Shown: positions 7,201 through 21,433 of the stretch, piece by piece
Position numbering within the stretch: the first letter of the stretch is position 1
How the letters are laid out: every line of letters starts with the position of its first letter
Origin: a virus
Length of the DNA: 23,198 bases
IMG/VR virus record: IMGVR_UViG_3300025674_000414
Coordinates: 1 to 23,198 of that record
Reading direction: 5' to 3' (one strand)
Made by a program: the position numbers and the translations under genes
The notes under the pieces: model-generated
Databases searched by the model: none
What the model was told of the DNA's origin: nothing
Seen by the model: the letters and a program-made list of their open reading frames with translations, nothing else

Positions 7201-10200
7201 CTGGTGAATACTTTGCTGTAGATTCATATACAGGTAGTATTGACTATGAACAGATTTATACTTACGTTTCAGATACAACAGGTAAAGAATACGATTTAAG
7301 AGATTGTATTGATTTGAGACCTCGTGTAGATGACGCTTCAACTATACCTGGTTCTACTTCAGGTTCAAATTACGAAAGATCGTTTGACGGTACAGGTGCT
7401 TCAGTTATTAATTACATTGAATTTGGTTCTGATATGTCAAATGACTTTGAATATTACTTACCAAGAATAGATAAAATCTTTTTAGACAAAGAAGGTAACT
7501 TTAAAGTTTCAAAAGGTAATTCTGCATTAGTTCCACAAACACCTTTAGATGTTGCAGGCGCAATGCACCTTTACACATTAGAAATTCCTGCTTACACATT
7601 ATCAACCGAAGATGTAACAATTAAGAAGATTGATAATAGAAGATTTACAATGAGAGATATTGGTAAATTACAAGACAGAATAGAAAACTTAGAATACTAT
7701 ACTCAATTATCTCTATTAGAAACACAAGCACAAAATTTACAAATCCAAGACGCAAGTGGATTTGATAGATTTAAAAATGGATTTGTTGTAGATAACTTTA
7801 CAGGTCACAACATTGGTGATCCAGGTAACGTAGATTATAAATGTGCGATTGATATGGCAAGAGGTGAATTAAGACCTATCTTTAATGAGGATGCCGTTTC
7901 ATTAGTTGAAACAGATGATGATGGAACAGCAATTGTTGCCGCTGATAGAACAGCTGCTAATTATCAAAAAACTGGAGACTTGATTACTTTACCATACACA
8001 GAATCAACTTTAATAGATCAACCATTTGCAAGTAAAACTTTAAATGTTAACCCATTTGATATTAGAAACTTTACTGGTTCTATTCAGTTAACACCAGAAA
8101 CAGACGAATGGAAAGAAACAGAAAGAGCACCAGAATTAGTTATTAACAACGTAGGTGGTTTTGACACACTTGCTTCAAATTTAGGAAATAGTGCATTGTC
8201 TGGATTTGAAATTGGTACAATATGGAATGAATGGCAAGATTCTTGGACAGGAACACCAGTTGATATTGCAAGTAGAGATACTTCAGGAGAATTAAGAGCA
8301 GGTCGTAGAGTATTTAGAGAAACTGAAATTGAATCTATTACTGCTGTTTCTCAAACAAGAACAGGTGTTAGACAAACAATCGTACCTCAAACAATTAGAA
8401 ATAGTATTGGTGACAGAATTATATCAGTTGCCTTTGTTCCATTTATTAGAAGTAGAGATGTAGAATTTACTGCTACTAGAATGAAACCAAATACAAGAGT
8501 TTATCCATTCTTTGATAACATTGATATTACCGCATACGTAACACCATCAGGTGGTGCATTAGGTGGTTCTTTAGTTACAGATAATAACGGTTCTGTATCT
8601 GGAACATTCGCAATACCTGATCCTAAAGTTGACGCAAATCCTAGATGGAGAGCAGGTACAAGAGTATTCAGATTAACAAGTTCATCAACAGATGGTAGAA
8701 CAGATGTAGAAACTGCTGCTGAATCAGATTACGTAGCAAGAGGATTATTAGAAACTGTACAAAATACAATTATCTCTACAAGAGAACCTACAGTTGTTAG
8801 AGAAAGTACAAGTGAAACAAGATCAATCGCTAGATCATCTACAAGACAATCTACAAGAACAGTTGGTTGGGTAGATCCACTAGCACAAACATTCTTAATT
8901 GATGATGAAGGTGGTGTATTCTTAACATCTATAGATATTTTCTTTAGTTCAAAAGATGATAACATTCCAGTATCATTACAAATAAGAGAAGTTATAAACG
9001 GTTATCCTGGAAATAAAATATTACCATTCTCGGAAGTTAGTTTAAATCCTGGTTCTGTTAATACAAGTGCTGACGGTACAACAGCAACTACATTTACATT
9101 CTCTAGTCCTGTATTCATACAAGAAAACATTGAATACTGTTTTGTATTATTAGCAAATTCAGACAAGTATCTAGTTTATGCAAGTAGATTAGGTGAAACA
9201 GTTATTGGTTCAAATAGAACAATATCTCAACAACCTTATGCAGGTGTTTTATTTAAATCACAAAACGGTTCTACTTGGACTGCTGATCAAAACGAAGACT
9301 TGAAATTTAAAATTAAAAGAGCAGAATTTAGTTCTACTCCAGGTACAGTTACGTTATCAAATGCAACTCTTCCTGTTAGAACATTATCATCTAATCCTAT
9401 TAGAACAACAAACGGTTCAAATGTTGTAAGAGTATTCCACAAAAATCACGGAATGCACGGTCTAACAAATAGAGTTACAATTTCAGGCGTACCTTCTTCA
9501 GGTATTAATGGTATTGTACAAAACGAAATTAATGCTACTCACACATCTATTTCAAATGTTACGTTAGATAGTTACGATATTACTTTAACAGGAAACGCAA
9601 CTGCTACAGGTGATATTGGTGGAAGTGCTGTAACTGCTTCACAAAACAGATTATTTGATGTATTGAATATAAATGTTTCAACACTTGCAATACCTGGTAC
9701 TTCTATTGCAACAACTTTAAGAACAACAAGTGGTAGAGGTATACACGGATCAGAAACAGAATTTAGCAGACAATCTGCTTCTGAAGCAGAAGCTATTGTT
9801 ACAAACGATAACATTTACTTTACATCTCCTAGAATGGTAGCAAGTGAAGTCAATGAAACTAATCAAGCAACTTTAGGAAATGGTACAAGAACACCATCTA
9901 TAATAACAAACTATACATTAAGTACAAACAATACTAAACATACACCTGTTTTAGATTTACAAAGAGCAAGTGCTTTTGTTATACATAATAGATTAAATAA
10001 TCCTACTGCTGGTAATACACCTAACTTTGTTGCTGAAACGGCAAGTACAGGTGGTTCTGCGTCTGCTGTTTATTTAACAAGACCTATTACACTTGCAAAT
10101 GCTTCAACAGCATTAGATATTAGATTAACTGCTAATGTACAATCAAGTTCAGAAATAGAAGTTTACTATAGAACAACATCATCAAGTGAACCTAGAGATA

Positions 10201-10415
10201 TTGAAAACTTATCATATGTACCATTTAACGGTGATGGAAGTGAAGACGTTGCAGTAACTCCTGCTTCAGATTCACAAACATACCAAGAATACAAATATTC
10301 AGCAACTGGAATAGAAGACTTTACTGCCTTTCAAATTAAAATAGTTATGAAAGGTACGATAACATCTTATCCACCAATTATAAAAGACTTTAGAGGTATT
10401 GCTCTGGCAGTATAA
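4290..10415 (+). CDS. Giant DUF4815-like tail/baseplate structural protein
   Basis: 2041 residues, the largest gene in the window, with AGAGGG (4278-4283) before the ATG. The N-terminus (residues 22-66: FHRILFRPAFAVQARELTQS, then QNQIERISDHFFEKGAMVIPGE) is the signature I know as DUF4815 in T4-like marine phages. Bead-like segments follow, such as KGATSGVLGTIV, ITGNTSGATGYV and VAGETITDGSNTAV. A second recognisable block begins at residue 1526 (GWVDPLAQTFLIDDEGGVFL) and runs through SLQIREVINGYPG. The protein is rich in Thr, Ser, Asn and Ala, with no signal peptide. It probably forms part of the baseplate periphery or a long fibre-like structure; a gp10-like role is possible but unproven. It lies between the gp8-like gene and the fibre genes. 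Confidence 0.75.
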   Translation: MPSPTDFNLTPYYDDYAESKKFHRILFRPAFAVQARELTQSQSILQNQIERISDHFFEKGAMVIPGEISYDLDYRAIKLTSFSGSATLSNFVGKTFKGATSGVLGTIVNSVVTDGVDPDTLFVKYLNSGSSNTAIAFSDSETINESSTAGVLVSGGFSAVVNSTATGSAAEVAEGVYYINGFHVKVDNQTVILDKYTNTPSYRVGLLVTESFVASTDDNSLLDNAQGSSNVNAPGADRFKINLTLQKRIITSSDDANFVELLRLRNGILQNQVRTTEYAVLEDTFARRTFDESGDYTVRDFDLDLREHIVDGNNRGIYTLAQGGNEALMAAGLSPGKAYVQGYEISTIGTTFLNVDKARDFATQNNFNTRIDLQNYVHVTNIYNAPDIGFVSGDVEALKAVNLYAYPTSARGTQNTGSGSTVYQLGRAKSRGFEYVTGPASANIFASSSATSAVYKHYLFDIEMFTHLNILSNQSYSAGDRITGNTSGATGYVHNSSTTEATAVSSITVASPGVVTATGHKFREGQQIKFSAISAENNSTAITTSDIFTVRNPDTNTFELYESNGTTATNITSFSSAGNAIHGVVVVSSVNGTFVAGETITDGSNTAVIQSDAVGFKAVRSHEFSAVKQVGMAGGTLISYTADTALDSTYGDVTELTGLVSIVNSSTALIGSGTSFLTELKVGDEITFDTDAGTTISKNVEAIISNTSITLSSAVGGSDVTTSNVFYRKRSKLNGSNKNISIFQLPYKKIKTLNTTANGGASDTNYSYRKQFTATLSANGDATITAGTNETFASLLEKDFVVSIVVLGAGSTGALGDVLSLSGNNHEGDAIFEAGGSPVGKTLKFDFGANYQGHKIKILATISKSIGDLKTKTLTASTSVVGLPNISSQTEIESGTIRLKRADILRVNAVYMSADFSTAATSSSTNITSRFDLDNGQRDNYYDIGRLVLKTGELTPTGQLYVDFDFFEHGTGEYFAVDSYTGSIDYEQIYTYVSDTTGKEYDLRDCIDLRPRVDDASTIPGSTSGSNYERSFDGTGASVINYIEFGSDMSNDFEYYLPRIDKIFLDKEGNFKVSKGNSALVPQTPLDVAGAMHLYTLEIPAYTLSTEDVTIKKIDNRRFTMRDIGKLQDRIENLEYYTQLSLLETQAQNLQIQDASGFDRFKNGFVVDNFTGHNIGDPGNVDYKCAIDMARGELRPIFNEDAVSLVETDDDGTAIVAADRTAANYQKTGDLITLPYTESTLIDQPFASKTLNVNPFDIRNFTGSIQLTPETDEWKETERAPELVINNVGGFDTLASNLGNSALSGFEIGTIWNEWQDSWTGTPVDIASRDTSGELRAGRRVFRETEIESITAVSQTRTGVRQTIVPQTIRNSIGDRIISVAFVPFIRSRDVEFTATRMKPNTRVYPFFDNIDITAYVTPSGGALGGSLVTDNNGSVSGTFAIPDPKVDANPRWRAGTRVFRLTSSSTDGRTDVETAAESDYVARGLLETVQNTIISTREPTVVRESTSETRSIARSSTRQSTRTVGWVDPLAQTFLIDDEGGVFLTSIDIFFSSKDDNIPVSLQIREVINGYPGNKILPFSEVSLNPGSVNTSADGTTATTFTFSSPVFIQENIEYCFVLLANSDKYLVYASRLGETVIGSNRTISQQPYAGVLFKSQNGSTWTADQNEDLKFKIKRAEFSSTPGTVTLSNATLPVRTLSSNPIRTTNGSNVVRVFHKNHGMHGLTNRVTISGVPSSGINGIVQNEINATHTSISNVTLDSYDITLTGNATATGDIGGSAVTASQNRLFDVLNINVSTLAIPGTSIATTLRTTSGRGIHGSETEFSRQSASEAEAIVTNDNIYFTSPRMVASEVNETNQATLGNGTRTPSIITNYTLSTNNTKHTPVLDLQRASAFVIHNRLNNPTAGNTPNFVAETASTGGSASAVYLTRPITLANASTALDIRLTANVQSSSEIEVYYRTTSSSEPRDIENLSYVPFNGDGSEDVAVTPASDSQTYQEYKYSATGIEDFTAFQIKIVMKGTITSYPPIIKDFRGIALAV

Positions 10416-10420
10416 TTTTT

Positions 10421-10648
10421 ATGACTATATTAAAAGTACAAGGTTATGAAAGTTTAGTGAGAGATACAAGATCAAATGCGATTGTTAATACAAATAAAAG
10501 TGAATACAAAATGTATATGGCAAGAGCAAGAGCAAGAGAACAACAAGGTGATGAAATAAGAAATGCTGTAAAAGAGATAAATAATCTAAAAGCAGAATTA
10601 AGAGAAATAAAAAATTTAATAAAAGAAGTAGTTAAAAATGGCAGTTAG
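10421..10648 (+). CDS. Small coiled-coil protein among tail genes
   Basis: 75 residues. There is no clear Shine-Dalgarno site before the ATG, which lies five bases after the previous stop, so coupling is likely. The first 30 residues read LKVQGYESLVRDTRSNAIVN, which has the feel of small conserved proteins in T4-like marine phages. The rest (about 33-72) is charged and heptad-like (IRNAVKEINNLKAELREIKN), predicting a coiled coil. It overlaps the following fibre gene by 11 bases. A role in fibre or baseplate assembly is only an inference from position. Confidence 0.65.
   Translation: MTILKVQGYESLVRDTRSNAIVNTNKSEYKMYMARARAREQQGDEIRNAVKEINNLKAELREIKNLIKEVVKNGS
10576..10583 (+). promoter_or_regulatory. 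Possible late promoter, GATAAATA
   Basis: GATAAATA matches the relaxed NATAAATA late motif and lies 55 bases before the fibre start at 10638. However, it sits inside the small coiled-coil gene, where such AT-rich octamers arise often by chance. Confidence 0.2.
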
Positions 10649-12032
10649 ATCAGTAGCAATAACAGATACACTAGAAACATTTAGAACGCAATTTAATACA
10701 CTTGCGGCAAGTGATTTTGGTGATATAGCAACTTTAGATCCATCACTTTCAGCAACAAGTGTCATTGGTGCGGTTAACGAATTATCAGCACAGGTTTCTG
10801 CTTCACTTGGTATCTTTATTGAAGATAGTTCATCTACTCAACAACAAATCGGTGCAGGACAAACTTTAACAGTTTTAGGTACATCAAATCAAATTAATGC
10901 TGTTGTATCTGTTCCTGATACATTAACTATTTCAATGCCTAATGATGTTACGATTGCAAACAATCTTACTGTTTCAAATCAATTAACGGTAACTGATACT
11001 GCTTTAATAGATGGCACATTAACTATTGCAACAGGTTCTATTACAGATTCAAGTGGTACAATATCTTTTTCAAATGAAAATTTAATTACTACAGGTACAA
11101 TCAATACTGGCGGTGCGACTGTAACATCTTTATCATCTACAGGCGCTGTTTCTGGTACAACAATTACAGGTTCAAGTACAGTTACAGGTGCTAATTTAGT
11201 TTTAACAACAAATGGTACATTAACTTTTGAAGGTTCTACAAATGATGATTTTGAAACTACTTTAACAGTTGTAAATCCTACTGCTGATAGAACAATTACT
11301 TTACCTAACATAACAGGTACAGTTGTAACTACTGGTGATACTGGTACAGTTACAAGTACAATGATTGCAAATGGAACAATTGTTAACGCTGATATAGCAG
11401 ACACAACTATTAGAGCAGCAAAATTAAATTTATCTGCTGATACACTAGTTGTAGATACTTTACAAGCAAATACAATTACAGGAACTGCTTCAGTTGCTCA
11501 GTTAGTAGAATTAACAGATAACGGAAATTTAAACGAAACAGTTTACTTAACTTTTGCCGATGGTGCTACAGGTAATCAAGGATTAGAAACAGATCCAGGT
11601 TTAACTTATAATCCAAGTACAAATATTTTATCTACAACTGCTTCACAAGCAAACTACGCCGACTTAGCAGAGAAATATGTATCAGATGAAGAATATTTAC
11701 CAGGTACTATTGTTATGTTTGGTGGTTCACAAGAAATTACTATTGCAACTGAAAAAACAAAAGCAGTTGCTGGTGTTATATCAGAAAAACCTGCTTATTT
11801 AATGAATAGTGGATTAACAGATACATTAGCATTAAATGTTGCTTTACAAGGAAGAGTACAATGTAAAGTAAAAGGTAATATTAATAAAGGTGATATGATT
11901 GTTGTAAGTGATGTATCAGGAGTTGGTATTGCTGATAATGATCCTAAATTAGGAACAGTTGTCGGTAAAGCATTACAAAGTTACAATAGTGAAGAAGTTG
12001 GAACTATAGAAGTCGTGGTTGGTAGACTGTAA
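10638..12032 (+). CDS. Tail fibre-like protein with conserved C-terminal domain
   Basis: 464 residues. The N-terminal 70 residues (VAITDTLETFRTQFNTLAAS, then SATSVIGAVNELSAQV) look like a virion attachment segment. The middle (about 70-330) is low-complexity Thr/Ser/Gly/Asn beta-repeat sequence. Residues 335-464 form a distinct domain: YADLAEKYVSDEEYLPGTIV, VAGVISEKPAYLMNSG, ALQGRVQCKVKGNINKGDM and a terminal EVVVGRL. I know this domain from the ends of fibre proteins of T4-like marine phages, where it resembles intramolecular-chaperone or protease-type tips; autoprocessing here is unproven. It is the last ordinary structural gene before the modification cassette and ends inside an inverted repeat. 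Confidence 0.75.
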   Translation: MAVRSVAITDTLETFRTQFNTLAASDFGDIATLDPSLSATSVIGAVNELSAQVSASLGIFIEDSSSTQQQIGAGQTLTVLGTSNQINAVVSVPDTLTISMPNDVTIANNLTVSNQLTVTDTALIDGTLTIATGSITDSSGTISFSNENLITTGTINTGGATVTSLSSTGAVSGTTITGSSTVTGANLVLTTNGTLTFEGSTNDDFETTLTVVNPTADRTITLPNITGTVVTTGDTGTVTSTMIANGTIVNADIADTTIRAAKLNLSADTLVVDTLQANTITGTASVAQLVELTDNGNLNETVYLTFADGATGNQGLETDPGLTYNPSTNILSTTASQANYADLAEKYVSDEEYLPGTIVMFGGSQEITIATEKTKAVAGVISEKPAYLMNSGLTDTLALNVALQGRVQCKVKGNINKGDMIVVSDVSGVGIADNDPKLGTVVGKALQSYNSEEVGTIEVVVGRL

Positions 12033-12044
12033 TAAATATTACAG
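12027..12044 (+). repeat. Perfect 18-base inverted repeat at cassette boundary
   Basis: CTGTAATA, AA, TATTACAG: two perfect 8-base arms around two bases. It spans the fibre stop codon (12030-12032) and ends two bases before the next ATG (12047). There is no GC-rich stem or U-run, so it is not a classical intrinsic terminator. An operator-type or dyad promoter element is possible. Confidence 0.6.
12031..12038 (+). promoter_or_regulatory. Possible late promoter, AATAAATA
   Basis: AATAAATA in the 14-base gap and stop region before the cupin gene is one base from TATAAATA and fits the NATAAATA form reported for cyanophage late genes. It is the only such motif close to the head of the 12047-21433 cassette. 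The spacing to the ATG (8 bases) is too short for a usual leader plus ribosome site, so it may instead act from within the palindrome or be fortuitous. Confidence 0.35.
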
Positions 12045-12046
12045 TT

Positions 12047-12484
12047 ATGATTGCTGAATTGATGAACGAAGTAGTATCGTATGAACGATACGAAAATAAT
12101 GAATTATTTTATATAGACAAAGACGGAAAAGACTTTTCTGTAAAAAACACTTTATCATTTTCTGAATGGTTAATAAAAAAAGATAACTTCCCTACTATCA
12201 AAGTTGAAGGCATAGAAACAAATGCTTTTATCACATCAAATTTTCCACGTATAGATTTTAATACAGTACATTTATTTGTACAAAACAAAAAAGGTTATAG
12301 TTTTGATTGGCACAAAGATGATACAAATGTTTATCTTTATGTAGTCAAAGGTCGTAAAAAAGTTTTTATAGATGATGAACAACATTGGGTTGGTTTTGGA
12401 GATGGCATACATATATTAAAAGGAAATAAACATAAAGTTGAAAGTGATAATGACACTTGGGCATTAAGTTTAGGTTATGAATAA
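12047..12484 (+). CDS. Cupin/JmjC-like putative Fe(II) dioxygenase
   Basis: 145 residues. The second half carries FDWHKDDTNVYLYVVKGRKK (residues 86-105), which strongly resembles the JmjC/cupin_4 pattern H-x-D followed by a strand and a G-x-K turn. His89 and Asp91 are the likely proximal metal ligands, and His129 in KGNKHKVES the distal one. JmjC and cupin_4 enzymes use Fe(II) and 2-oxoglutarate to hydroxylate protein side chains. This is a short member (most are over 200 residues), close to a minimal double-stranded beta-helix. The gene overlaps the next radical SAM gene by one base (TAATG), so the two are probably made together. Substrate is unknown; a non-enzymatic cupin is possible. Confidence 0.65.
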   Translation: MIAELMNEVVSYERYENNELFYIDKDGKDFSVKNTLSFSEWLIKKDNFPTIKVEGIETNAFITSNFPRIDFNTVHLFVQNKKGYSFDWHKDDTNVYLYVVKGRKKVFIDDEQHWVGFGDGIHILKGNKHKVESDNDTWALSLGYE

Positions 12485-13527
12485 TGAATTGGATGTTTTA
12501 TATAAAGACAACGGAAACTTGTCAATTAAATTGCAAACATTGTTTTACTAATGGTATAAACGGTGCAAAAATTTATTTCAATCCCACAAAGACAATAGAC
12601 TGGTTTAAAAGATTTAGAGATTATCATCCTAACGAATTAGATTCTGCACACTTAGAGTTTCACGGTGGTGAACCTTTTTTAGCACCTGTTTCTCATATGA
12701 CAAAAGTTCATAATGAATTAAAAGACTTATGGAAAAGACAAACTTTTGGTATAACATCTAATTTAGTTTTTAAATTAAAAGATGAACACTTTGAGTTTAT
12801 AGACGGACCTTTAAACAAAAGAATGGGTACAAGTTGGGATCCTAAAATAAGATTTGAAAATGATAAACAAGAAAAGTTGTGGGAAAAGAATATACAAACT
12901 TTATTAGATAGAGGCGTTACAATAAAACTTTTTATATCTGTTACACAAGATACAATCAATATCGAACCAATTGAATTATTAAAATGGATAAGAGATTTAG
13001 GTGTACAAGAAGTTTCATTTGAAAGACTTACAGGTAATGGTAATGCGAATTTACATCCAGAGATATTTCCAAAGAACATAGAACAAGACGCTTGGTTTCT
13101 AAAAATGCACCATCAAAGTGAAGAATACGGTGCTAGAAAATGGTTTGAAAATGAAACATTAGAAGTCATCTATGATAAATTTGATACAGGATTTTTAAAA
13201 GGTGGTACATTTTGTAGAGATTGTGAACAAAAAATCTTTACAATTAACGCAGATGGCACAATATCAGGTTGCCCAAATGCAGCACCAGAGTTTCAATTTG
13301 GTCATTTAAATGACGATATAAAAAGTCTTATAAATAGTCCAAAGAGAATACACAACATTGTTTGTGAAAGGTCACGTAATCCTTTATGTTTTAAGTGTCC
13401 TGTATTTGAATTTTGTGGTGGAGATTGTCACCAACTTGCTTGGCAAGGAGATATTTGTGGCGCACCAAAAAGTTTAATGAAAGAATTAAAAGGAAAATTA
13501 AGTTATGGCAATATCAGATCCAGTTAG
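12484..13527 (+). CDS. Radical SAM protein with SPASM domain (copy 1)
   Basis: 347 residues. CQLNCKHC gives the radical SAM cluster ligands Cys13, Cys17 and Cys20 (Cx3Cx2C), and HGGEPF at 60-65 is the SAM-binding GGEP motif. The C-terminal third has Cys244, Cys247, Cys263 (DGTISGCPN), Cys294, and then Cys302-x2-Cys305-x5-Cys311-x3-Cys315 and Cys325. This is the SPASM pattern for two auxiliary 4Fe-4S clusters. SPASM enzymes such as anSME and peptide maturases modify Cys, Ser or other side chains in proteins or peptides. The 3' end overlaps by 23 bases the gene whose product ends in CHxS repeats, making that protein the first candidate substrate. Family is near certain; substrate is inferred. 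Confidence 0.9.
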   Translation: MNWMFYIKTTETCQLNCKHCFTNGINGAKIYFNPTKTIDWFKRFRDYHPNELDSAHLEFHGGEPFLAPVSHMTKVHNELKDLWKRQTFGITSNLVFKLKDEHFEFIDGPLNKRMGTSWDPKIRFENDKQEKLWEKNIQTLLDRGVTIKLFISVTQDTINIEPIELLKWIRDLGVQEVSFERLTGNGNANLHPEIFPKNIEQDAWFLKMHHQSEEYGARKWFENETLEVIYDKFDTGFLKGGTFCRDCEQKIFTINADGTISGCPNAAPEFQFGHLNDDIKSLINSPKRIHNIVCERSRNPLCFKCPVFEFCGGDCHQLAWQGDICGAPKSLMKELKGKLSYGNIRSS

Positions 13528-14068
13528 TAAAGCGGGTATCGTAAATAGATTTGAAGATTTGGTTACAGACGTTGCAAATACAGGCATTGTATGGGGAACA
13601 GACAATAAACCATTTACAGAAATGCCTGATGGTAATTATGCTGGTACAACTGCTGGCGACAGCATAAACATTACAAGTGCTGACATCACAGGTACAGTTA
13701 TTACTGCTTCAACTATACGTACTGTTTTAGAAACAGAAGCTGCGTTATATACAAACATTAGACAACAACAAGCAATTTTATTTGTAGAAGGTGCAGGTGG
13801 TAACACAGGTTCACGTCCAACACCAGGTACAATTTTTGACCAAACCCAAGTTGCACACTTAGACACAGGTAATCGAGCATCTTTAGGTGCTATTAGTTCT
13901 GGAAGTGTAACAACAGGAAATGTTATAGATGATACAAATTTAGAAACATATATGGGAAACATTGCAACAGCATACAATACAATTAGAACAACAACGATAA
14001 CAGATCAGGTAAATGTGTGCCACGCAAGTTGCCACTCATCTTGCCACGGAAGTAGAGGAAGAAGATAA
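13505..14068 (+). CDS. Structural-like protein with C-terminal Cys-His-x-Ser repeats, candidate modification substrate
   Basis: 187 residues. AAAGGA (13488-13493) supports the ATG, which lies inside the upstream radical SAM gene. Residues 1-170 are Thr/Ala/Asp-rich phage virion-type sequence (NRFEDLVTDVANTGIVWGTD near the start, YNTIRTTTITDQVN at 157-170) and contain no Cys. All three Cys occur in the last 16 residues: CHAS, CHSS, CHGS, then RGRR (172-187). A large Cys-free core with a compact reactive tail is what one expects of a carrier with a maturation tail, or of a metal-binding tip. It overlaps the next gene by one base. No homologous function can be named; similar tails may exist in cyanophage proteins, but I could not check that. 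Confidence 0.75.
   Translation: MAISDPVSKAGIVNRFEDLVTDVANTGIVWGTDNKPFTEMPDGNYAGTTAGDSINITSADITGTVITASTIRTVLETEAALYTNIRQQQAILFVEGAGGNTGSRPTPGTIFDQTQVAHLDTGNRASLGAISSGSVTTGNVIDDTNLETYMGNIATAYNTIRTTTITDQVNVCHASCHSSCHGSRGRR
14018..14065 (+). other. Cys-His-x-Ser triple repeat encoding segment
   Basis: Codons 172-187 of the 187-residue protein. The hexamer TGCCAC recurs exactly every 12 bases (14018, 14030, 14042), encoding Cys-His three times, each followed by x-Ser; an Arg-Gly-Arg-Arg end follows. The spacing is Cx3Cx3C and, for His, Hx3Hx3H. HAS, HSS and HGS are three His-x-Ser tripeptides, as in the HxsA targets of bacterial His-Xaa-Ser radical SAM systems, but with a Cys before each. Confidence 0.7.
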
Positions 14069-14754
14069 TGATTATAGAAACAAAAGCACCAATTGCTATT
14101 GATGAATTGAAAAAATATTTTACTGACAAAGACGTAAGTTATTTAATTGATTATTCAACAAGTGAATTAAAAGGTAAAAAACTTTTAACTTATTTAAGTA
14201 ACTTAGATATACCTGCTGATATTAAAAATGTAGATTTAGAATTAGTTAAAGAATATTTACATTCTGTTTCTTTAGTTAATATTAAATCATTAGAAAACAT
14301 TGTAATAGATATTTTACTTGTAGAAAAGAACCTTGCAAAGAACGAACATTACAATAAGTTTATTACAGAAAATTTTGAGATTATTGAAAAATGGAAAAAC
14401 AAATTAGAAAGTTTGACTTTGTATAATATGTATATGTTAAATTCAGATGAATTTAGAGATTATGCAAAATCATATCCAAATGATGAAACAAAAGATTTAG
14501 AAGGTGTAAACTTTGTAAGTCTTTTAAAACACGAGAGATTTTTCTCATATTACGGTAGAATAAATAATGATAAACTAAAGTTTTATAATCATTACTTTAA
14601 TGACTATATGTTTAGAGGAAAAAATATGTTTGACTATTGGGCAAACGATAAAAACCCTCTATTCTTGTTGACTTGGGCAGTTGCAAATAATAAAGGTAAA
14701 GACTATATCAACGCTAAAAAGGAATTTATAAAAAATGTTACATCTATTCAATAA
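14068..14754 (+). CDS. Unknown protein in modification cassette (228 residues)
   Basis: 228 residues, starting on a TAATG overlap with the CHxS protein gene, so translation is probably coupled. It is Lys/Asn/Leu-rich and contains no cysteine. The sequence looks mostly helical in residues 1-130 (for example IAIDELKKYFTDKDVSYLID), with an aromatic C-terminal half (FFSYYGRINNDKLKFYNHYF, NMFDYWANDKNPLFLLTWAV). I recognise no domain. Its place directly after the candidate substrate and before another unknown gene suggests a partner: a substrate-binding helper, chaperone or second virion component. That is inference from order alone. Confidence 0.7.
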   Translation: MIIETKAPIAIDELKKYFTDKDVSYLIDYSTSELKGKKLLTYLSNLDIPADIKNVDLELVKEYLHSVSLVNIKSLENIVIDILLVEKNLAKNEHYNKFITENFEIIEKWKNKLESLTLYNMYMLNSDEFRDYAKSYPNDETKDLEGVNFVSLLKHERFFSYYGRINNDKLKFYNHYFNDYMFRGKNMFDYWANDKNPLFLLTWAVANNKGKDYINAKKEFIKNVTSIQ

Positions 14755-15838
14755 AGTTTATTTAGAATTAGACGATAAGATAGAATTAAATTACGATAGA
14801 GTTGTTATCGGAACTTGTGGTGTACCACTTGCCGATCGAGTTGCAGATGTAACTAGCGGACAACTATTAAGTTATTCAACAAGTTATCCAGACAATTTTG
14901 TAAACTTAATTACATCAATTAAATCACATACTGATACAAGTAATAAAAAACTAATCATCTATGCTGATAAAACAAACTATACAAAATTATTCATAGAGTG
15001 GGTTAAAACAATATTACCTAACCTTGATCTATCTTCATTTAATAAACTAAAAGACTTAACTGTTTATAAAGAAAGAGTTATTAATAATACTCAATTACAA
15101 ACTGTTGGTTCTATTAATATGACACAACTATGGGCAGGTCTTGGTGATTTAACAGACACATTTAATAATACAGTTGTTTCAGATGAACAAAGATCATCTA
15201 TCAAAAGTTTAAATTTAAATTATTCATATGAGTATTTACTTGCTGATCACTTTAGTGGATCAACAAATTATACATCTTCATTAAATACAACAGTTCATAG
15301 ATTTTTAATTAGATGGTTCAAAGAAGCATTTACAGATAATAGAGAAATGGTTTTAATGAATCTGTTAAATAAAACTTTTCAAACTGGATTATCATTTACT
15401 GAAAGTGATGTAAATTTAACTTCATCAAATCCTATATCTGGCGTTTCTTCACTTCAATACTATGCAGATGAAACTATATGGGAACAAAAAGATACAATTA
15501 GTTCAGGTGTTTATGGTATATGTAATTTAGAAGGTATCAATCAAACACAAGTTGACGGATTAAGAACATTAATTAAAAAAGTTTATGCAGATGTAGAAGG
15601 AATGGAAATCAATAGAACAATGTTTAGTGCTTTTGATTACTTAGAGTATGCTGTAAAAGATTCTATTTCAAATACAGAAATGAATACTGTTTTAGACTTT
15701 GTTGTTGCAAATCCATTTGATACTTGTTTAGTACCTAAATTTGATTTTCAAAATGTAAACTTTGTTTTAATTCAACACATTTTCAATTTAAAGAGAGATA
15801 ACAATACCGAGGCATTAACGAAATTTAGATTATTATAG
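14735..15838 (+). CDS. Unknown protein in modification cassette (367 residues)
   Basis: 367 residues. AAAAAGGA at 14716-14723 precedes the ATG, and the gene overlaps its upstream neighbour by 20 bases. The N-terminal part alternates short strands and helices (DRVVIGTCGVPLADRVADVT; KKLIIYADKTNYTKLFIEWV), followed by an Asn/Thr/Ser-rich middle (YLLADHFSGSTNYTSSLNTT) and a C-terminal helical part. It has only three cysteines, with no metal-site spacing, and no signal peptide. No family is recognised. It could be a virion protein acted on by the cassette or a scaffold for the enzymes; the sequence does not decide. Confidence 0.7.
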   Translation: MLHLFNKVYLELDDKIELNYDRVVIGTCGVPLADRVADVTSGQLLSYSTSYPDNFVNLITSIKSHTDTSNKKLIIYADKTNYTKLFIEWVKTILPNLDLSSFNKLKDLTVYKERVINNTQLQTVGSINMTQLWAGLGDLTDTFNNTVVSDEQRSSIKSLNLNYSYEYLLADHFSGSTNYTSSLNTTVHRFLIRWFKEAFTDNREMVLMNLLNKTFQTGLSFTESDVNLTSSNPISGVSSLQYYADETIWEQKDTISSGVYGICNLEGINQTQVDGLRTLIKKVYADVEGMEINRTMFSAFDYLEYAVKDSISNTEMNTVLDFVVANPFDTCLVPKFDFQNVNFVLIQHIFNLKRDNNTEALTKFRLL

Positions 15839-15843
15839 AGGGG
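15837..15843 (+). promoter_or_regulatory. Ribosome binding site deciding a GTG start
   Basis: AGAGGGG overlaps the stop codon of the 367-residue protein gene and lies four bases before GTG at 15848. No ATG in that frame is nearer, so this strong site fixes the GTG as the start of the second radical SAM gene. Confidence 0.6.
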
Positions 15844-15847
15844 TAAA

Positions 15848-16900
15848 GTGAGAGAATTTATCATTGACCCAAAGCGTGATCCAGAACAAGAATACACAAT
15901 ACATTTATTTGAGTTTTGTAATTTAAGATGTTCGTTTTGTTGGCAAAACCACGAAGATACGATAGGTATAGATAACGTAGTAGATAAACTACCGTTTATT
16001 GAAAAGTTTATTTCAAAAGAGTTAAGAAAAAAAGTTCTATTCAATGTAATGGGTGGTGAAGTCTTTGCACCTGCAATCTACAATAAAAATCTCAATGAAG
16101 GATACAAACTACTTTCAAAAGGTATAGAAGATATTTGTAAAAAATATAATAAAGAATTTGTGATTAATTGGGTTACAAATTTAGTTACAAATGAAGAAGG
16201 TAATAATTTAATAAGAGATTTATTAGATTGGTCAAAATCAAATAATATAACTGCTAGATTAACAACAAGTTATGACCCTCGTGGTCGTTTTAACGCAACT
16301 GATTTACAAATATTTAAAGATAATGTTGAATATTGGAAAGATGAATTAACTTGTTTTTCTTGTTTGATGACTAAATCAAATTTAGAATATTACTTAACAA
16401 ATAATGATGAATACTTTGATTATCTTTATAAGTCTGGTAAATATATTTACTTTGATTACTATATGCCAGATCACGCTGCTAAACATCAAATGCCAAGTGA
16501 TGAATTATTATTAAAGTTTTTTAAATGGTTAGTAGATAATTATCCAAATACACATCCTGTTAGAGATTGGATTTTCAATAAGAAAAATTATGCTTCTTGT
16601 AGAACAAGTAAGTTAGTTTTAGCAGACGGTACATTATGTCAATGTGGTAATTTAACACAACATCCTAAATCATTAAGTATGTACAAAAGTCCTATTAAGA
16701 GAATGGATAATAGTGAGATTGAAAATAAGTTTTTAGAAAAATACAACTGTGCTTCTTGTGAATTTTTAGATAGATGTACACTAGGTTGTTTTATGAATAG
16801 AGATTACAAATACTTGGAGGAACTAAATGAGTGTGTCTTCAAACTTACGCACCGATATATCGAAGATGTACGAGTACAACGAGGATACGAAGCTCGTTGA
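15848..16900 (+). CDS. Radical SAM protein with SPASM-like domain (copy 2)
   Basis: 350 residues from a GTG start backed by a strong ribosome site. CNLRCSFC gives Cys24, Cys28 and Cys31; MGGEVF (68-73) is a GGE motif with Val in place of the usual Pro. The C-terminal cysteines are Cys251, Cys264, Cys266, then Cys301-x2-Cys304-x5-Cys310-x3-Cys314 and Cys329, a SPASM-type arrangement with an unusual Cys-x-Cys pair in the DGTLCQCGN turn. The middle has little in common with copy 1, so this is an old, divergent paralogue and not a recent duplicate. It probably acts on a different site or substrate. The 3' end overlaps the next gene by 74 bases. Confidence 0.88.
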   Translation: MREFIIDPKRDPEQEYTIHLFEFCNLRCSFCWQNHEDTIGIDNVVDKLPFIEKFISKELRKKVLFNVMGGEVFAPAIYNKNLNEGYKLLSKGIEDICKKYNKEFVINWVTNLVTNEEGNNLIRDLLDWSKSNNITARLTTSYDPRGRFNATDLQIFKDNVEYWKDELTCFSCLMTKSNLEYYLTNNDEYFDYLYKSGKYIYFDYYMPDHAAKHQMPSDELLLKFFKWLVDNYPNTHPVRDWIFNKKNYASCRTSKLVLADGTLCQCGNLTQHPKSLSMYKSPIKRMDNSEIENKFLEKYNCASCEFLDRCTLGCFMNRDYKYLEELNECVFKLTHRYIEDVRVQRGYEAR

Positions 16901-17417
16901 TATTCAAATACCTAATGTTGATATTAAGTTAGATACATTACCTATTAAACATCCGTTTGTACCTAGAATATGTGATAGACAAGCACATTTCTTTATATGG
17001 TGGGGAACTGTAGAAAGTGATCCTGATATATATGAAGACGCTATTAAAAACAAAGGTGAAGAACAATGGGTTAATTGTGATGACAATTGGAAGTTAGAAA
17101 AAGGTGTTGCTATGTTACATATCTATGATGATGAGGTAATTGTCGGCAGTATTAAGTATGCTGGACATATGAATAGAAAATCTAAAAGTGAAATACGAAA
17201 CTTCATAAGATTAATGTATTCAGATATATTAGAATGTTTTGATGATAGAAAAATCATAATACCATCTGGTTCTTACTTTGAACACTTACATTTAACTATG
17301 AATCAAAAGAAGATACAACACGAACCTTATCATAGAGAATTAATGCAACAATTCGGTTTTGAAAGGCAAGATAAGTATTGGATACGATATGCAAATCAAG
17401 TTTATAGATACCATTGA
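16827..17417 (+). CDS. Unknown protein, faintly acetyltransferase-like (196 residues)
   Basis: 196 residues. GGAGG around 16816-16820 gives a good ribosome site for this ATG, although the gene begins 74 bases inside the previous one. The core (about 92-185) runs KGVAMLHIYDDEVIVGSIKY, then helix IRNFIRLMYSDILECFDDRK, PSGSYFEHLHLTMN, and HRELMQQFGFERQDKYWIRY. The strand-helix-strand order and the final L-x-x-x-F-G-F-x-x-x-x-x-Y-W are faintly like GNAT acetyltransferases, but the acetyl-CoA loop is not evident. I do not claim the family. It sits between a radical SAM gene and an oxygenase gene, overlapping both, so a role in the same modification is likely but unspecified. Confidence 0.7.
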   Translation: MSVSSNLRTDISKMYEYNEDTKLVDIQIPNVDIKLDTLPIKHPFVPRICDRQAHFFIWWGTVESDPDIYEDAIKNKGEEQWVNCDDNWKLEKGVAMLHIYDDEVIVGSIKYAGHMNRKSKSEIRNFIRLMYSDILECFDDRKIIIPSGSYFEHLHLTMNQKKIQHEPYHRELMQQFGFERQDKYWIRYANQVYRYH

Positions 17418-17967
17418 AATTGTAGATAACTTTTTAGATGATAAGAAGTTAATAGATGATTTAAAACAAGAAAGTAAAATCACTAATACAATTGAAGGAC
17501 AAGATACACATAACTTTACAGAACCTCAAAAAAAGTTTTACGAGTTAATTAATAAAGTTATTGTAAATTATTGTTTTGAAAATGACATTGAATATACTAA
17601 TTTAAAATTTTCTAATTTACAAAAAGGTAATCTACACAAATACGATCAATCAAAAGTAACAAATCATTTGTATGAACCACACCACGATATGGTAGAAAGT
17701 TCTTATATAACTGCTATCTATTATATTGATAGTGATTACTCTACTGAAAAGTGGGTGGGTGGTGAATTAGCAATCTATAAGAGTCTGACGTTTGCAGAAT
17801 ATCCGCACAATACAGTAAACATATTACCAAAGAAAAACAGATTAATTATCTTTCCAGGTTTTTTAGTGCATAGAGTTAAACCTTATTTCGGTGATAATCC
17901 TAGATCATCATTAGTGTTAGGGTGGAAAATAAAAGATCAACCAAAAGTTTTACCTATAAAAGTATAA
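17389..17967 (+). CDS. 2OG-Fe(II) oxygenase, prolyl 4-hydroxylase-like
   Basis: 192 residues from ATG 17389; a TTG 30 bases upstream is possible but unnecessary, and the ATG start gives FIDTIEIVDNFLDDKKLIDD, a normal opening for this family. The double-stranded beta-helix motifs are clear: YEPHHDMVES with His98 and Asp100 (HxD), ITAIYYIDSDY, GGELAIY, then FPGFLVHRVKP with distal His161, and NPRSSLVLGW with Arg172 as the likely 2-oxoglutarate salt bridge. P4H-type enzymes hydroxylate proline or other residues in proteins. The gene overlaps its upstream neighbour by 29 bases and its downstream radical SAM neighbour by one. Family is confident, substrate unknown. Confidence 0.85.
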   Translation: MQIKFIDTIEIVDNFLDDKKLIDDLKQESKITNTIEGQDTHNFTEPQKKFYELINKVIVNYCFENDIEYTNLKFSNLQKGNLHKYDQSKVTNHLYEPHHDMVESSYITAIYYIDSDYSTEKWVGGELAIYKSLTFAEYPHNTVNILPKKNRLIIFPGFLVHRVKPYFGDNPRSSLVLGWKIKDQPKVLPIKV

Positions 17968-19058
17968 TGGATTTAATAATTAAACCTACAGAATTATGTA
18001 ATTTTAAATGTACGTTTTGTTCATCTACAAAGATAGCACAACACAAAAAAGATTTATTAAATCATAATTATATCTTTAGATTTCTTAAAAGATTTCCTCA
18101 AACTAAAACAATCATAGTTAATGGTGGTGATCCTTTAATGGTTGAACCAGGTTATTACTGGAGAATTATTGATTGGTTAGATGAACATAATTATAATACT
18201 TCTATTTCGTTAACAACTAATCTCTGGCCGTTTTATGTTAAACCTAAAAAGTGGGCACCTTTATTTAATAATGATAGAGTAGGTATTACAACATCTTTTC
18301 AATACGGTGGTGGTAGACTAAAAGGTGACTTTACAGAATTTACTGAAGAAGACTTTTGGAAATGTTCAGATACAATGTTAGAGTATTGTGGTTATCGACC
18401 TGATTTTATTGCTGTTATTGTGCCAGAGAACGAAGATATGGCATTAAAAAACGTAGAATTGGCGTACAAAATGAGTGATGGAAAAGAACCTAAAGATACG
18501 TTTGAAAATTTATCAAAAGAAAAAACGGGTGTTGAATGTAAATTAAATTATGCTATGTCAAGTGGCGACCAAGATAAACCATATTTGTTAAGTAAGATAT
18601 ATCAAAAGTATGTAGAGATATGGGAAAAAGGTTTACATCCTTGGGAGTTTAATACTCGACAAATGATGAAAAGAATTAGAGATGAAATAACTTTATGTCC
18701 TCAAAATAGAAAATGTGATGAGGGTATCAGATCATTTAATCCAAGTGGTGATTATTATAGTTGTGGTGCTTTTGGTGATGATAAAGATAAAGCAATAGAC
18801 TTTGAAGCAGAAATGCAAGGTAAGTTTTTTACACCATTACAAAAAGATGTAAACTTGTTTAGTATGAAACGTGCTTGTTTAGAATGTCCTATGTTTAATA
18901 TATGTAATGGATGTAGAAAGACAATTAAAGATTTTAAAAAACATAATGTAGTAGAAGATCATTGTAGATTAATGAAAACTATCGCACCAAAGATACTAAA
19001 AGCAAATGATCTAAATATAGAAGTAACTCCTTACGTGGATGAAAGAAATGTTAGATAA
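17967..19058 (+). CDS. Radical SAM protein with SPASM-like domain (copy 3)
   Basis: 363 residues from ATG 17967, which overlaps the oxygenase stop (TAATG); a GTG at 17922 in frame is less likely because the ATG puts the cluster motif at the usual distance from the start. CNFKCTFC gives Cys11, Cys15 and Cys18; NGGDPL at 52-57 is a GGDP variant of GGEP. The C-terminal cysteines are Cys244, Cys250, Cys266 (GDYYSCGAF), then Cys304-x2-Cys307-x5-Cys313-x2-Cys316 and Cys333. This again suggests two auxiliary clusters. It is translationally coupled to a 2OG oxygenase on both sides, which points to a joint modification. Substrate is unknown. Confidence 0.88.
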   Translation: MDLIIKPTELCNFKCTFCSSTKIAQHKKDLLNHNYIFRFLKRFPQTKTIIVNGGDPLMVEPGYYWRIIDWLDEHNYNTSISLTTNLWPFYVKPKKWAPLFNNDRVGITTSFQYGGGRLKGDFTEFTEEDFWKCSDTMLEYCGYRPDFIAVIVPENEDMALKNVELAYKMSDGKEPKDTFENLSKEKTGVECKLNYAMSSGDQDKPYLLSKIYQKYVEIWEKGLHPWEFNTRQMMKRIRDEITLCPQNRKCDEGIRSFNPSGDYYSCGAFGDDKDKAIDFEAEMQGKFFTPLQKDVNLFSMKRACLECPMFNICNGCRKTIKDFKKHNVVEDHCRLMKTIAPKILKANDLNIEVTPYVDERNVR

Positions 19059-19566
19059 ATTTTTAAATAATGGATTTTTCAAAGTAACTGACTCAAAAGC
19101 ATTTAAGTTCTTTGATATAGATACTGTCGAATGGACAGACAAAGGTGAAATGGGTGTAGCAATTATTGAACGTAACGATAAGATAGAAAAACAATTAGAA
19201 AAGACTAGAGATTATGTTAGTGATAATATCATACTACCTCATTTAGGTTCTCACGCTTATAGTAAAATAGAAGTTGTAAATGGATTAGATAAACCTACAT
19301 TAGAATGGCACAATGATTTAGTTGAAGGTCCTAATTGTGGTTGTTTATTATACTTTGATGATACAGACGAAGATACAGGCGGTGCAATTAAATTTAGACA
19401 CGCTAAATCAAAAGATCAAATAAGTGAAATCTATCCTAAAAAATTTGACATCATAGTTATCAATCATAGTTTAAGATTTCAACATATGGTAACTGAACAA
19501 AAAATGCCAGTACCTCGTAGAGTGATGAGTTTAAACTTTTACTTAGATGAAAGATTATCAAAATGA
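19039..19566 (+). CDS. 2OG-Fe(II) oxygenase-like protein (P4H type), second copy
   Basis: 175 residues; the start may be ATG 19039 or ATG 19048, and both overlap the radical SAM gene. LEWHNDLVEG holds His91 and Asp93 (HxD). CGCLLYFDDTDEDTGGAIKF is the following strand-turn-strand, RFQHMV gives distal His149 (a His at 143 is a second candidate), and PRRVMSLNFYL supplies Arg160 or Arg161 for 2-oxoglutarate. This order is characteristic of the prolyl hydroxylase-like fold. It is not a recent copy of the oxygenase at 17389, since similarity is limited to the motifs. It overlaps the next oxygenase gene by four bases (ATGA). Confidence 0.82.
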   Translation: MKEMLDKFLNNGFFKVTDSKAFKFFDIDTVEWTDKGEMGVAIIERNDKIEKQLEKTRDYVSDNIILPHLGSHAYSKIEVVNGLDKPTLEWHNDLVEGPNCGCLLYFDDTDEDTGGAIKFRHAKSKDQISEIYPKKFDIIVINHSLRFQHMVTEQKMPVPRRVMSLNFYLDERLSK

Positions 19567-20126
19567 TTTTAAACTATTGGCCAACACCTATAATGTACGA
19601 TAGAATTAGTAACAACAAGTTATTAGATAAAACTACACAATACATTTTAACTGCTTACAATGATAATACAAGTGCAAATATCTTACATCAAAATATATTA
19701 GATGATAAAGAATTAACAGATTTTAGAAAAGAAATAATTGTACCTACTTTTGATAAATTTTATAAACAAGAGTTTGGTTTTAGTATTAAGGAAAAAAGAT
19801 TTCATTTGAGAGGGTGGATAACTGGTTATGGAATAACTTATTCAATGAGAAAACATAATCATTCAGGTTCACATTTAAGTGCTGTATTTTATTTACTAGC
19901 AGAGGAACAAGATAAGGGTGGTCGTTTAGTAATAAGTGATCCTAGATTTAATGCAAATCGAGGATATAAAGATGAGTTTAATAAATGGTTTGAACCACAT
20001 ACTATAATTCCTTGTACAGGAGATGTAGTTCTTTTTCCTAGTTTTCTTTATCATAATGTAGAAACATTTTATGGTAAACTAAGACTTGCAATGCCAGTAG
20101 ATTTAATATTGTACGACAATGAATAA
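19563..20126 (+). CDS. 2OG-Fe(II) oxygenase-like protein of the 2OG-FeII_Oxy_5 type
   Basis: 187 residues. RGWITGYGITYSMRKHNHSG (83-102) and HLSAVFYLLAEEQDKGGRLV (104-123) are followed by ISDPR, GDVVLFPSFLYHNVETF and KLRLAMPVDL. This matches the small putative 2OG-Fe(II) oxygenase family seen in marine phages and proteobacteria (TIGR02466/PF13759 type). The proximal motif is H-x-H (His98, His100), with His104 nearby and no HxD; His164 is the distal ligand and Arg174 the likely 2-oxoglutarate contact. The substitution for Asp is usual for this subfamily as I recall it, but I could not check. It overlaps both neighbours by a few bases. Confidence 0.78.
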   Translation: MILNYWPTPIMYDRISNNKLLDKTTQYILTAYNDNTSANILHQNILDDKELTDFRKEIIVPTFDKFYKQEFGFSIKEKRFHLRGWITGYGITYSMRKHNHSGSHLSAVFYLLAEEQDKGGRLVISDPRFNANRGYKDEFNKWFEPHTIIPCTGDVVLFPSFLYHNVETFYGKLRLAMPVDLILYDNE

Positions 20127-21066
20127 AATAACTGTATCAATTAATCCATCTTATTTTTGTAACTTTAGATGTAACTTTTGTTATCTAACACCTGAGCAAT
20201 TAGGTAATCAAAAAAGAATACCCTTACCTATTTTAGATAAACGATTAGAAGAATTATCTAAAGTAAGAGAAATAGAATGGATAGATTTATATGGTGGTGA
20301 AATAGGTGCATTAAAGAAAAATTACTTTTATGGTTTACGAGATGTTATAAGAAGATGGTATGGTGGAAAAATAAACATCATTACAAACTATAGTATGTTG
20401 CACGAAGGATTTTATGAAGATGACTTTTATCTTTCTGTAAGTTATGATTTTGAAGCAAGAGAAAAATCTGATTTAGTTTATAATAATATGATTATGAGTC
20501 CTGTACCAATTGCTGTATTAATACTTGCAAGTGAAAAAGTTATTAATATGAATGTAGATGAAATGATTTTAAAATTAAATTTATGTACATCTATAGAAAG
20601 TGTTGAGATTAAACCTTATTCTATTAATCAAGCAAATGCACAACCAGTAACACATAGAGATTTTGAAAACTTTGTACAAAAATGGATTGAAAGTAAAGTA
20701 CATAAGAATTTTGATTTTATAAATGAAGGTAATATTATTAGAAGTTTAAAAAAAGAATATAACGCATTTTCAAACGATCACGTTTACATCACACCGAACG
20801 GTAACTTTGGTGTTTTAGAGTTTGATAAAAATGATAAAGAATATTTTAAAGAGTATAATAACTTTAAGTTTATAGAAAAATGGGCAAATGATGAACCACT
20901 AAATAACATATCAGACATATGCAAACAATGTAATTATTATGGTCATTGTTTAACTGAACATTACAGATATGTCAAAGATTTGAAAAACGGTTGTAATGGA
21001 TATAAAGGACTATTAGATTGGTATGGAAAAGAAAGATTGGAAGATAAGACAAGAGTTATATCATAG
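20119..21066 (+). CDS. Radical SAM protein with reduced auxiliary cluster domain (copy 4)
   Basis: 315 residues, the shortest of the four. CNFRCNFC gives Cys14, Cys18 and Cys21, and LYGGEIG at 57-63 is the GGE motif. The C-terminal part has only Cys268-x2-Cys271-x5-Cys277 and Cys292. The turn where copies 1-3 place the first auxiliary-cluster cysteine reads NGNFGVLEFD and has none. This suggests one auxiliary cluster (twitch-like) or a degenerate SPASM domain. The core still looks intact, so it is probably active. The gene overlaps the oxygenase by 8 bases and the next small gene by 44. Confidence 0.85.
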   Translation: MNKITVSINPSYFCNFRCNFCYLTPEQLGNQKRIPLPILDKRLEELSKVREIEWIDLYGGEIGALKKNYFYGLRDVIRRWYGGKINIITNYSMLHEGFYEDDFYLSVSYDFEAREKSDLVYNNMIMSPVPIAVLILASEKVINMNVDEMILKLNLCTSIESVEIKPYSINQANAQPVTHRDFENFVQKWIESKVHKNFDFINEGNIIRSLKKEYNAFSNDHVYITPNGNFGVLEFDKNDKEYFKEYNNFKFIEKWANDEPLNNISDICKQCNYYGHCLTEHYRYVKDLKNGCNGYKGLLDWYGKERLEDKTRVIS

Positions 21067-21433
21067 ACTACACAAAGAACACAAAGACAATCTTTATGGT
21101 TATGATATTTTAATGTCAGACGATATAGTCAATGACGCTATAGACTATTTCAATGAAACTGAAATGCCCTTTATCTATCCAGCAAAAAGTTATGTAGTAG
21201 CAATATGTTACGCTACGTGGTTAGCAAGAGATTTTAAAGAAGACTTTTACGACTTATTGAGAGATAAGGAACTTCTTTATAATAATGATCCATACTTTAA
21301 AACGTATGAAGAAGACAAAGACACATATGATAAGATTATAGAAAAAGTCTTACCATTTGATGAAAACAAGGGAATTGTGCCTGACATAAAAGAATATTAT
21401 AAGGCAGAATTTTTCGATATAAATATAACATAA
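21023..21433 (+). CDS. Unknown acidic protein at the end of the cassette
   Basis: 136 residues from ATG 21023; no good ribosome site is visible, and the next ATG in frame would remove 30 residues, so the start is uncertain. The protein is rich in Asp, Tyr and Lys, with one possible hydrophobic helix (YVVAICYATWLARDFKEDFY, about 57-76) that is too charged for a membrane span. I recognise no family. The last codons (D-I-N-I-T) carry a late promoter octamer. It overlaps the last radical SAM gene by 44 bases and so belongs to the same coupled run. Confidence 0.65.
   Translation: MEKKDWKIRQELYHRLHKEHKDNLYGYDILMSDDIVNDAIDYFNETEMPFIYPAKSYVVAICYATWLARDFKEDFYDLLRDKELLYNNDPYFKTYEEDKDTYDKIIEKVLPFDENKGIVPDIKEYYKAEFFDINIT
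21418..21425 (+). promoter_or_regulatory. T4-type late promoter octamer inside a coding end
   Basis: A perfect TATAAATA sits in the last codons of the 136-residue protein gene, 17 bases before the next ATG at 21443. It marks the restart of late structural transcription after the cassette. Confidence 0.6.

Follow-up and report, generated by a model that had tools for sequence, protein, structure and literature searches.

What do four radical S-adenosylmethionine (SAM) enzymes do among the tail genes of a phage? The question is raised by IMG/VR record IMGVR_UViG_3300025674_000414, analysed here as the complete record of 23,198 bases (the window), whose gp8-like wedge gene (PF09215) marks its source, by sequence, as a T4-like phage. 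A preliminary description of this DNA had singled out positions 12047–21433, where it saw a thirteen-gene unit and suggested a dedicated pathway that targets virion proteins or a surface polymer. It mentioned neither a C-terminal CHxSCHxSCHxSRGRR tail in one of the products, here called the tag protein, nor a co-inherited fibre gene, nor the occurrence of the system in phiKZ-like phages and bacteria. From these features we conclude that the cassette is probably a maturation pathway, resembling those of ribosomally synthesised and post-translationally modified peptides (RiPPs), for the C-terminal tail of a surface protein that is associated with the fibre and probably contacts cells. Two features are central:

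13505–14068, plus strand: tag protein, the candidate substrate, fibre-associated, 187 residues; the scaffold diverges and the C-terminal tail is kept
14018–14068, plus strand: C-terminal tag CHASCHSSCHGSRGRR plus stop codon, the proposed modification site; exact pattern match

The tail is 16 residues long, and its pattern found no match in 100 shuffles of the window. With a degenerate DNA pattern for it we retrieved at least 119 stretches of viral contig in which long in-frame open reading frames (ORFs) end in the tail. Since loci found by the pattern possess the tail by construction, two tail-independent sets were built, one from a scan with rSAM3, the third of the radical SAM enzymes (80 viral loci), and one from a profile search of bacterial genomes with g14068, the gene that follows the tag gene; rSAM3 served as the viral query, g14068 having no conserved stretch suited to a profile scan. 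Among the 69 g14068 homologues counted, drawn from the rSAM3 loci and seven bacterial loci of the Bacteriovorax-order search described below, the tail gene is adjacent in 57 and elsewhere in the locus in 6, while 4 homologues are truncated and 2 have none in the 1.4–1.8 kb of upstream sequence covered. A gene with the tail, or with a His-rich version ending in SRGRR, thus lies beside or near 63 of the 65 untruncated copies. The two cases without a tail gene are near-identical to each other.

The tails at the seven bacterial loci, found by g14068 alone, vary (YCHGNFPPPCHGSRGRR and near copies, YCHTNVPTPPPCHASRGRR, YCHSNHCSHSNHGSRGRR and YWCHSSHSSHSSHSSRGRR) and all end in SRGRR. What the tails have in common is thus the SRGRR end and His-x-Ser/Asn-like units; Cys is usually present, but its number can be reduced. 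In isolate phages, four loci were reached through rSAM1 and not through the tail, and there the gene after rSAM1 ends in CHSSCHASCHNSRSRR (Atu_ph07), CHTSCHASCHSSRSRR (Phosso), CHSSCHTSCHGSRGRR (SURPRISE13) or CHTSCHTSCHSARGRR (DT01). Searches of isolate phages by tblastn with the whole tag protein and with a 26-residue tail query returned nothing, although tail-bearing homologues exist there, because the scaffold is too diverged and short queries fail. Movement of the tail between unrelated scaffolds was considered and rejected: once the tails are removed, 167 of 177 sequences fall into a single homologous cluster. Motif matches in Frankia, Pseudoalteromonas and Bordetella were set aside as chance, none of the profiled cassette neighbours being found there.

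An AlphaFold model of the tag protein has a confident domain (mean predicted local distance difference test score, pLDDT, 87.7; predicted template modelling score 0.81), and its residues 172–187, with pLDDT of ~55–61, match the expectation for a free, disordered tail. The model has no significant fold match in the PDB, and the sequence has no Pfam match and only a weak PHROG match to an unnamed family. A second class of locus encodes two tandem tag proteins, mostly of 124–140 residues. At one locus (L041, 1203–10081) a tag protein with four repeats (CHSNCHSNCHSNCHTNRSRR) is followed by seven radical SAM genes, and three phage-like contigs binned as Rhodobacteraceae Water_Bin34 (L138, L142 and L147) have a ~2000-residue fibre gene and then two tag genes.

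The other genes of the cassette, in their order in the window around the tag gene, are these:

12047–12484, plus strand: cupin, a probable accessory to rSAM1; PF07883, 3e-07; immediately 5' of rSAM1 in most loci
12484–13527, plus strand: rSAM1, a radical SAM/SPASM enzyme; SPASM PF13186 and TIGR04085 above cut-off; phrog_1802, 1e-66
14068–14754, plus strand: g14068 (phrog_20767), closely tied to the tag gene; found in 112 of 129 loci
14735–15838, plus strand: g14735, a frequent partner; in 70 of 129 loci; no Pfam or NCBIfam match
15848–16900, plus strand: rSAM2; phrog_1802, 2e-42
16827–17417, plus strand: g16827, optional; in 18 of 129 loci; no family match
17389–17967, plus strand: 2-oxoglutarate (2OG)-Fe(II) oxygenase-like, optional; PF13640, 9.8e-09; start corrected
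17967–19058, plus strand: rSAM3, the best conserved of the enzymes; 63% mean column identity over 20 diverse homologues
19039–19566, plus strand: 2OG-Fe(II) oxygenase-like, optional; PF13640, 1.1e-04, under the curated cut-off (23.5 vs 27 bits)
19563–20126, plus strand: 2OG-Fe(II) oxygenase-like, optional; PF13759, 9.8e-12
20119–21066, plus strand: rSAM4; phrog_1802, 1e-31
21023–21433, plus strand: g21023 (phrog_20737), a small partner 3' of rSAM4; phrog_20737, 8e-44; in 71 of 80 rSAM3-found loci

Over the 129 loci the recurrent order is cupin–rSAM1–tag–g14068–g14735–rSAM2–rSAM3–rSAM4–g21023, and the arrangement is far beyond chance because the same order occurs in dozens of independent contigs. 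All four radical SAM proteins have a visible CxxxCxxC motif, weak Pfam matches (PF04055 and SPASM) and strong matches to phrog_1802 (1e-31 to 1e-66). Homologues in isolates are found in Agrobacterium phage Atu_ph07, Sinorhizobium phage Phosso (62% identity for rSAM3), Burkholderia phages SURPRISE13, FLC6 and FLC8, and Pseudomonas phage pPa_SNUABM_DT01. A tree of 109 radical SAM proteins, made by a quick method and with some long branches, resolves four groups, each drawn from both phages and bacteria: rSAM1 (13 and 12 rows, respectively, support 96), rSAM2 (20 and 8, 99), rSAM3 (20 and 9, 99) and rSAM4 (19 and 7, 97). The four groups are common to T4-like phages, phiKZ-like Burkholderia phages, Agrobacterium/Sinorhizobium jumbo phages and Bdellovibrionota chromosomes, and their mixed composition indicates that the pathway travels as an orthologous quartet. 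Of 24 records checked, which comprise the two-tag class, several records with a single tag and a bacterial genome, 21 contain phrog_1802 radical SAM genes; the remaining three are contigs 5.6, 7.2 and 18 kb long. This profile also matches in all 14 control genomes, so the strength of a match matters; in most of these records several matches are strong and cover the full length (1e-20 to 1e-61), and one (G007) has only weak partial ones. In a Burkholderia phage cassette (L004, 14406–15583) two genes are annotated as dihydrofolate reductase.

Of the partner proteins, g14068 gave a high-confidence AlphaFold model (pLDDT 93.6) with no PDB fold match at E ≤ 0.001. Its first 55 residues resemble common alpha/beta units (Z ≤ 4.1), a likeness that we did not use. 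Sequence searches of the PDB with the tag protein, g14068, rSAM1 and rSAM3 found no relative.

Is the cassette tied to the virion? Its upstream neighbour is a fibre gene:

10638–12032, plus strand: tail-fibre-like gene; its C-terminal domain (YADLAEKY...VVVGRL) is inherited together with the cassette; phrog_19602 tail fiber, E = 3.5e-04; phrog_22593, E = 5e-09

This fibre-end domain lies 5' of the tag gene in 60 of the 81 tag loci with more than 2.5 kb of upstream sequence. In the two-tag class the fibre gene abuts the tag genes by 0–4 nt, and in the single-tag class usually only the cupin and rSAM1 genes (~1.5 kb) stand between. The preliminary description had called for a comparison of gain and loss among related phages, and this was made with relatives of the window's upstream baseplate gene that have enough downstream sequence (29 were too short). 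The block is present in 6, always with this fibre domain, and absent in 44; moreover, rSAM1, g14068 and rSAM3 match the identical 7 records among 50,697 isolate-phage records, so that joint inheritance is upheld. At cassette-free sites (such as L328 and L264) the flanking genes are conserved and the gap is filled by other small fibre-like genes. One of these (L264, 9763–13531) has several 2OG-like genes and no radical SAM gene, showing the oxygenases to be independent mobile parts of the host-recognition module; present at a site without radical SAM genes, they fall outside the obligate set. In these marine relatives the fibre gene and a core of the cassette are thus gained and lost jointly, and of the parts only the 2OG genes are also found on their own. 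The unit that emerges is a swappable host-recognition module, made up of the fibre, the tag protein and the enzymes of its maturation, to which 2OG genes are optional additions. As to what the pathway acts on, linkage and co-inheritance strongly support the virion protein, and the surface polymer has gained no support. At the same site another relative (L261) has only a different radical SAM gene, and its interval 7357–14026 holds a NAD-epimerase-like gene with other radical SAM/twitch-like genes, which may be a surface-modification cassette of another kind.

Indirect evidence places the tag protein in the virion itself. Its homologue is gp170 in Atu_ph07, gp72 in S13 and QTH80265.1 in pPa_SNUABM_DT01. 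The Atu_ph07 paper (PMC6102473) gives CDS 170–215 as the cluster of virion proteins defined by mass spectrometry. The gene numbering agrees, gp215 being the major capsid protein in both the sequence record and the paper, and gp170 is the first gene of the cluster; an edge of the cluster at gp170 implies that gp170 was detected in virions.

Why would bacteria keep the same genes? The g14068 profile found matches in 12 of 129 genomes in the order of a Bacteriovorax metagenome-assembled genome (MAG) and in 3 of 140 in a Bdellovibrionaceae order. Full or near-full sets lie on Bdellovibrionota contigs together with genes for ribosomal protein S20, pyruvate kinase, methionyl-tRNA synthetase or cytochrome oxidase, and these housekeeping genes indicate that the bacterial cassettes are chromosomal and not phage contamination. 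Several adjoin a gene with Peptidase_S74, a fibre chaperone domain, and in two of three examined that gene also has a prepilin N_methyl start; one bacterial locus (L255) encodes a phage-type fibre-end domain (E = 7e-27). Bacterial cassettes with an extra radical SAM protein of 570 residues, with a weak match to a B12-binding domain, were also seen (L154, 9568–11280). Bdellovibrio applies S74 fibres on prey (PMC10769870), and type IV pili in its invasion (PMC3983030). From the sharing between phages and bacteria we infer a contact role, chiefly because two kinds of attacker of Gram-negative cells have the system; the MAG lineages are putative predators.

How might the parts work together? We propose that the tag protein folds into a domain and leaves its 16-residue tail free, and that rSAM1 (with the cupin), rSAM2, rSAM3 and rSAM4 would put several modifications on the Cys/His/Ser units of the tail, assisted by g14068, g14735 and g21023. 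Four non-interchangeable radical SAM subfamilies imply several distinct steps. Cross-links or other radical C-H modifications at Cys, His and Ser of the tail are the likely chemistry, since the closest curated matches of the enzymes, although sub-threshold, are radical SAM peptide maturases; the variable 2OG oxygenases may contribute optional hydroxylations. Pfam and NCBIfam give no clear protease, exporter or transporter match among the window's cassette genes, which makes maturation in place, without release, the most economical scheme. The mature tail would then remain attached, borne on the virion next to the fibre encoded upstream, and would most likely make contact, as the phage attaches, with a feature general to Gram-negative envelopes. 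Judged from sequence comparison, the case for the tail as substrate is strong, and our confidence in an attachment role is moderate. We offer more tentatively, as a possibility short of likely, that this is an undescribed class of post-translational modification in viruses and in bacterial predators of Gram-negative cells, in which four orthologous radical SAM enzymes turn the CHxS-repeat tail of a fibre-associated protein into a chemically remodelled tip, which would bind some nearly universal constituent of Gram-negative envelopes.

Several points weigh against a tail-maturation pathway. The support drawn from the genes and their linkage, the invariant tail, the orthologous quartet, the co-inheritance with the fibre and the bacterial copies is all genomic, and the modification itself is predicted. 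Detection of gp170 in virions is deduced from the boundary of the published cluster, the fibre-end domain is undetected upstream in 21 of the 81 loci, no RiPP recognition domain (RRE) match appears in Pfam or NCBIfam, and g14068 and g14735 are without a fold or family match. The tail could also be a metal-binding element on which the radical SAM enzymes act only indirectly. Taken further, its six Cys/His ligands might hold a metal or cluster in an unmodified tail, for instance as a metallated tip like PAAR-type spikes, with the substrate of the enzymes elsewhere. Cys/His-rich repeats and a tail predicted to be disordered without ligand fit this idea; the tail protein is, however, locked to the radical SAM set, and bacterial variants with fewer Cys (YWCHSSHSSHSSHSSRGRR, YCHGNFPPPCHGSRGRR) retain the same set, so that a fixed ligand set is not conserved. 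We consider it unlikely.

Multi-enzyme radical SAM pathways can build small molecules, and several of the enzymes weakly match viperin at the superfamily level, so the tag protein might instead carry a small molecule or nucleotide analogue, assembled on it or released from it for host takeover or counter-defence, its proximity to the fibre being incidental. The window's enzymes reach at most 28.7 bits against the viperin cut-off of 180 (equivalog NF038283) and were not assigned to it; moreover, neither a clear protease nor an exporter for release was found among the window's cassette genes, the fibre gene is co-inherited, the Bdellovibrionota copies adjoin fibre or pilin genes and gp170 stands in the virion-protein cluster. 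This carrier role seems to us less probable still than a metallated tip. Least probable, and very doubtful, is a loose assembly of auxiliary or surface-polymer-modifying genes in a variable host-recognition region. Published surveys describe radical SAM cassettes and genes in this way (PMC7029224, PMC5332604), 2OG genes occur at a site without the cassette and L261 has its NAD-epimerase-like gene there, but gene order is conserved, the four enzymes are orthologous and the tail is invariant between distant phages and bacteria, and Pfam and PHROG identify no glycosyltransferase or sugar-nucleotide gene in the window's cassette.

Maturation of the tail has its nearest relatives in the radical SAM RiPP systems of the ranthipeptide maturase PapB, darobactin (DarE) and dynobactin (DynA). 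Like these, the cassette has SPASM-type maturases next to a small gene whose product is conserved in a C-terminal segment rich in Cys, Ser and His, and the best curated matches of rSAM1 and rSAM3 are peptide maturases. There is a candidate ribosomal precursor with a conserved modifiable segment (the tail on a diverging scaffold, also at loci found without the tail), and the dedicated maturases rSAM1 to rSAM4, as well as g14068, are genetically linked to it. In contrast, all matches fall far under curated cut-offs, the carrier is a folded domain of 120–364 residues, four distinct radical SAM enzymes are present, the genes lie in a virion-gene block and the release/export step of RiPP systems has no evident counterpart in the window's cassette. 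The tail units, H-x-S, also recall the His-Xaa-Ser system (HxsA–HxsD), and a variant from bacteria, CHSSHSSHSSHSSRGRR, consists purely of HxS repeats and has a weak HxsA match (TIGR03979, E = 0.009). Membership was rejected: rSAM1 scores 29.4 bits against 370 and rSAM3 30.1 against 267.9, below the HxsB/HxsC cut-offs, the window protein has no HxsA match and the L255 homologue reaches 16 bits against 121.65. Further differences are the absence of an HxsD match, the fixed SRGRR end and four radical SAM enzymes as against two.

In position the tag gene resembles those of gp38-like fibre-tip adhesins, being a small gene directly 3' of a fibre gene, or separated from it by two genes, and swapped together with it. 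Neither Pfam nor PHROG matches the tag domain to an adhesin, and its model has no counterpart among PDB folds, although kinship is still compatible with this; we know of no fibre-tip adhesin that is accompanied by radical SAM enzymes. The bacterial cassettes adjoin S74 fibre-like genes and so recall the S74-ended MAT fibres of predatory Bdellovibrio, whose description mentions no radical enzymes (PMC10769870); the S74 gene found here has the prepilin N_methyl start in two of three cases.

In the window, 12047–21433 is filled by 13 ORFs, all on the plus strand, which as called overlap by 1–74 nt at 11 of 12 junctions and leave a 9-nt gap at the other; better gene starts are 17389 for the first 2OG gene and 17967 for rSAM3. 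The single orientation and mostly overlapping genes noted in the preliminary description are borne out by these ORF calls, and its count of four radical SAM proteins, one cupin and three 2OG oxygenases holds, except that the JmjC label does not: by Pfam the cupin is an ordinary Cupin_2/AraC-type protein. The surroundings are T4-like and structural, as it had stated, with the gp8-like baseplate wedge at 2807 (PF09215, 2e-22), the phrog_473 virion protein at 10421, the fibre-like gene and a match to L-shaped-tail-fibre assembly at 21659; the gene at 21443 that it called DUF6447-like has no Pfam match. Promoter and terminator scans gave no signal exceeding shuffles. Far upstream, at 644–2452, three tandem genes of ~200 residues are apparent mutual paralogues with a common segment, FNPSSTTFVKHF, the first of them matching phrog_14820; they are possibly duplicated fibre or decoration proteins.

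The earlier papers examined name neither tail nor substrate, and we found no paper on the tag or the pathway in the open-access literature. The S13 and FLC6 papers treat these genes as accessory, those of phiRP12/31 are named among others, radical SAM cassettes of pelagimyophages were placed within a host recognition cluster (PMC7029224) and a T4-like genome with 12 radical SAM genes had them classed as iron-sulphur auxiliary genes (PMC5332604). As far as we have found, virion modification of this kind has not been reported before. If the proposal is correct, viruses would finish part of their own particle by RiPP-style radical chemistry, and the radical SAM and 2OG genes that surveys leave as unexplained accessory or auxiliary genes would acquire a function. 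An attachment module of phages would be linked to the Bdellovibrionota, and the system, available in the cultured phages Atu_ph07, S13/SURPRISE13, FLC6, Phosso and pPa_SNUABM_DT01, may yield new peptide chemistry and a new mode of binding Gram-negative cells.

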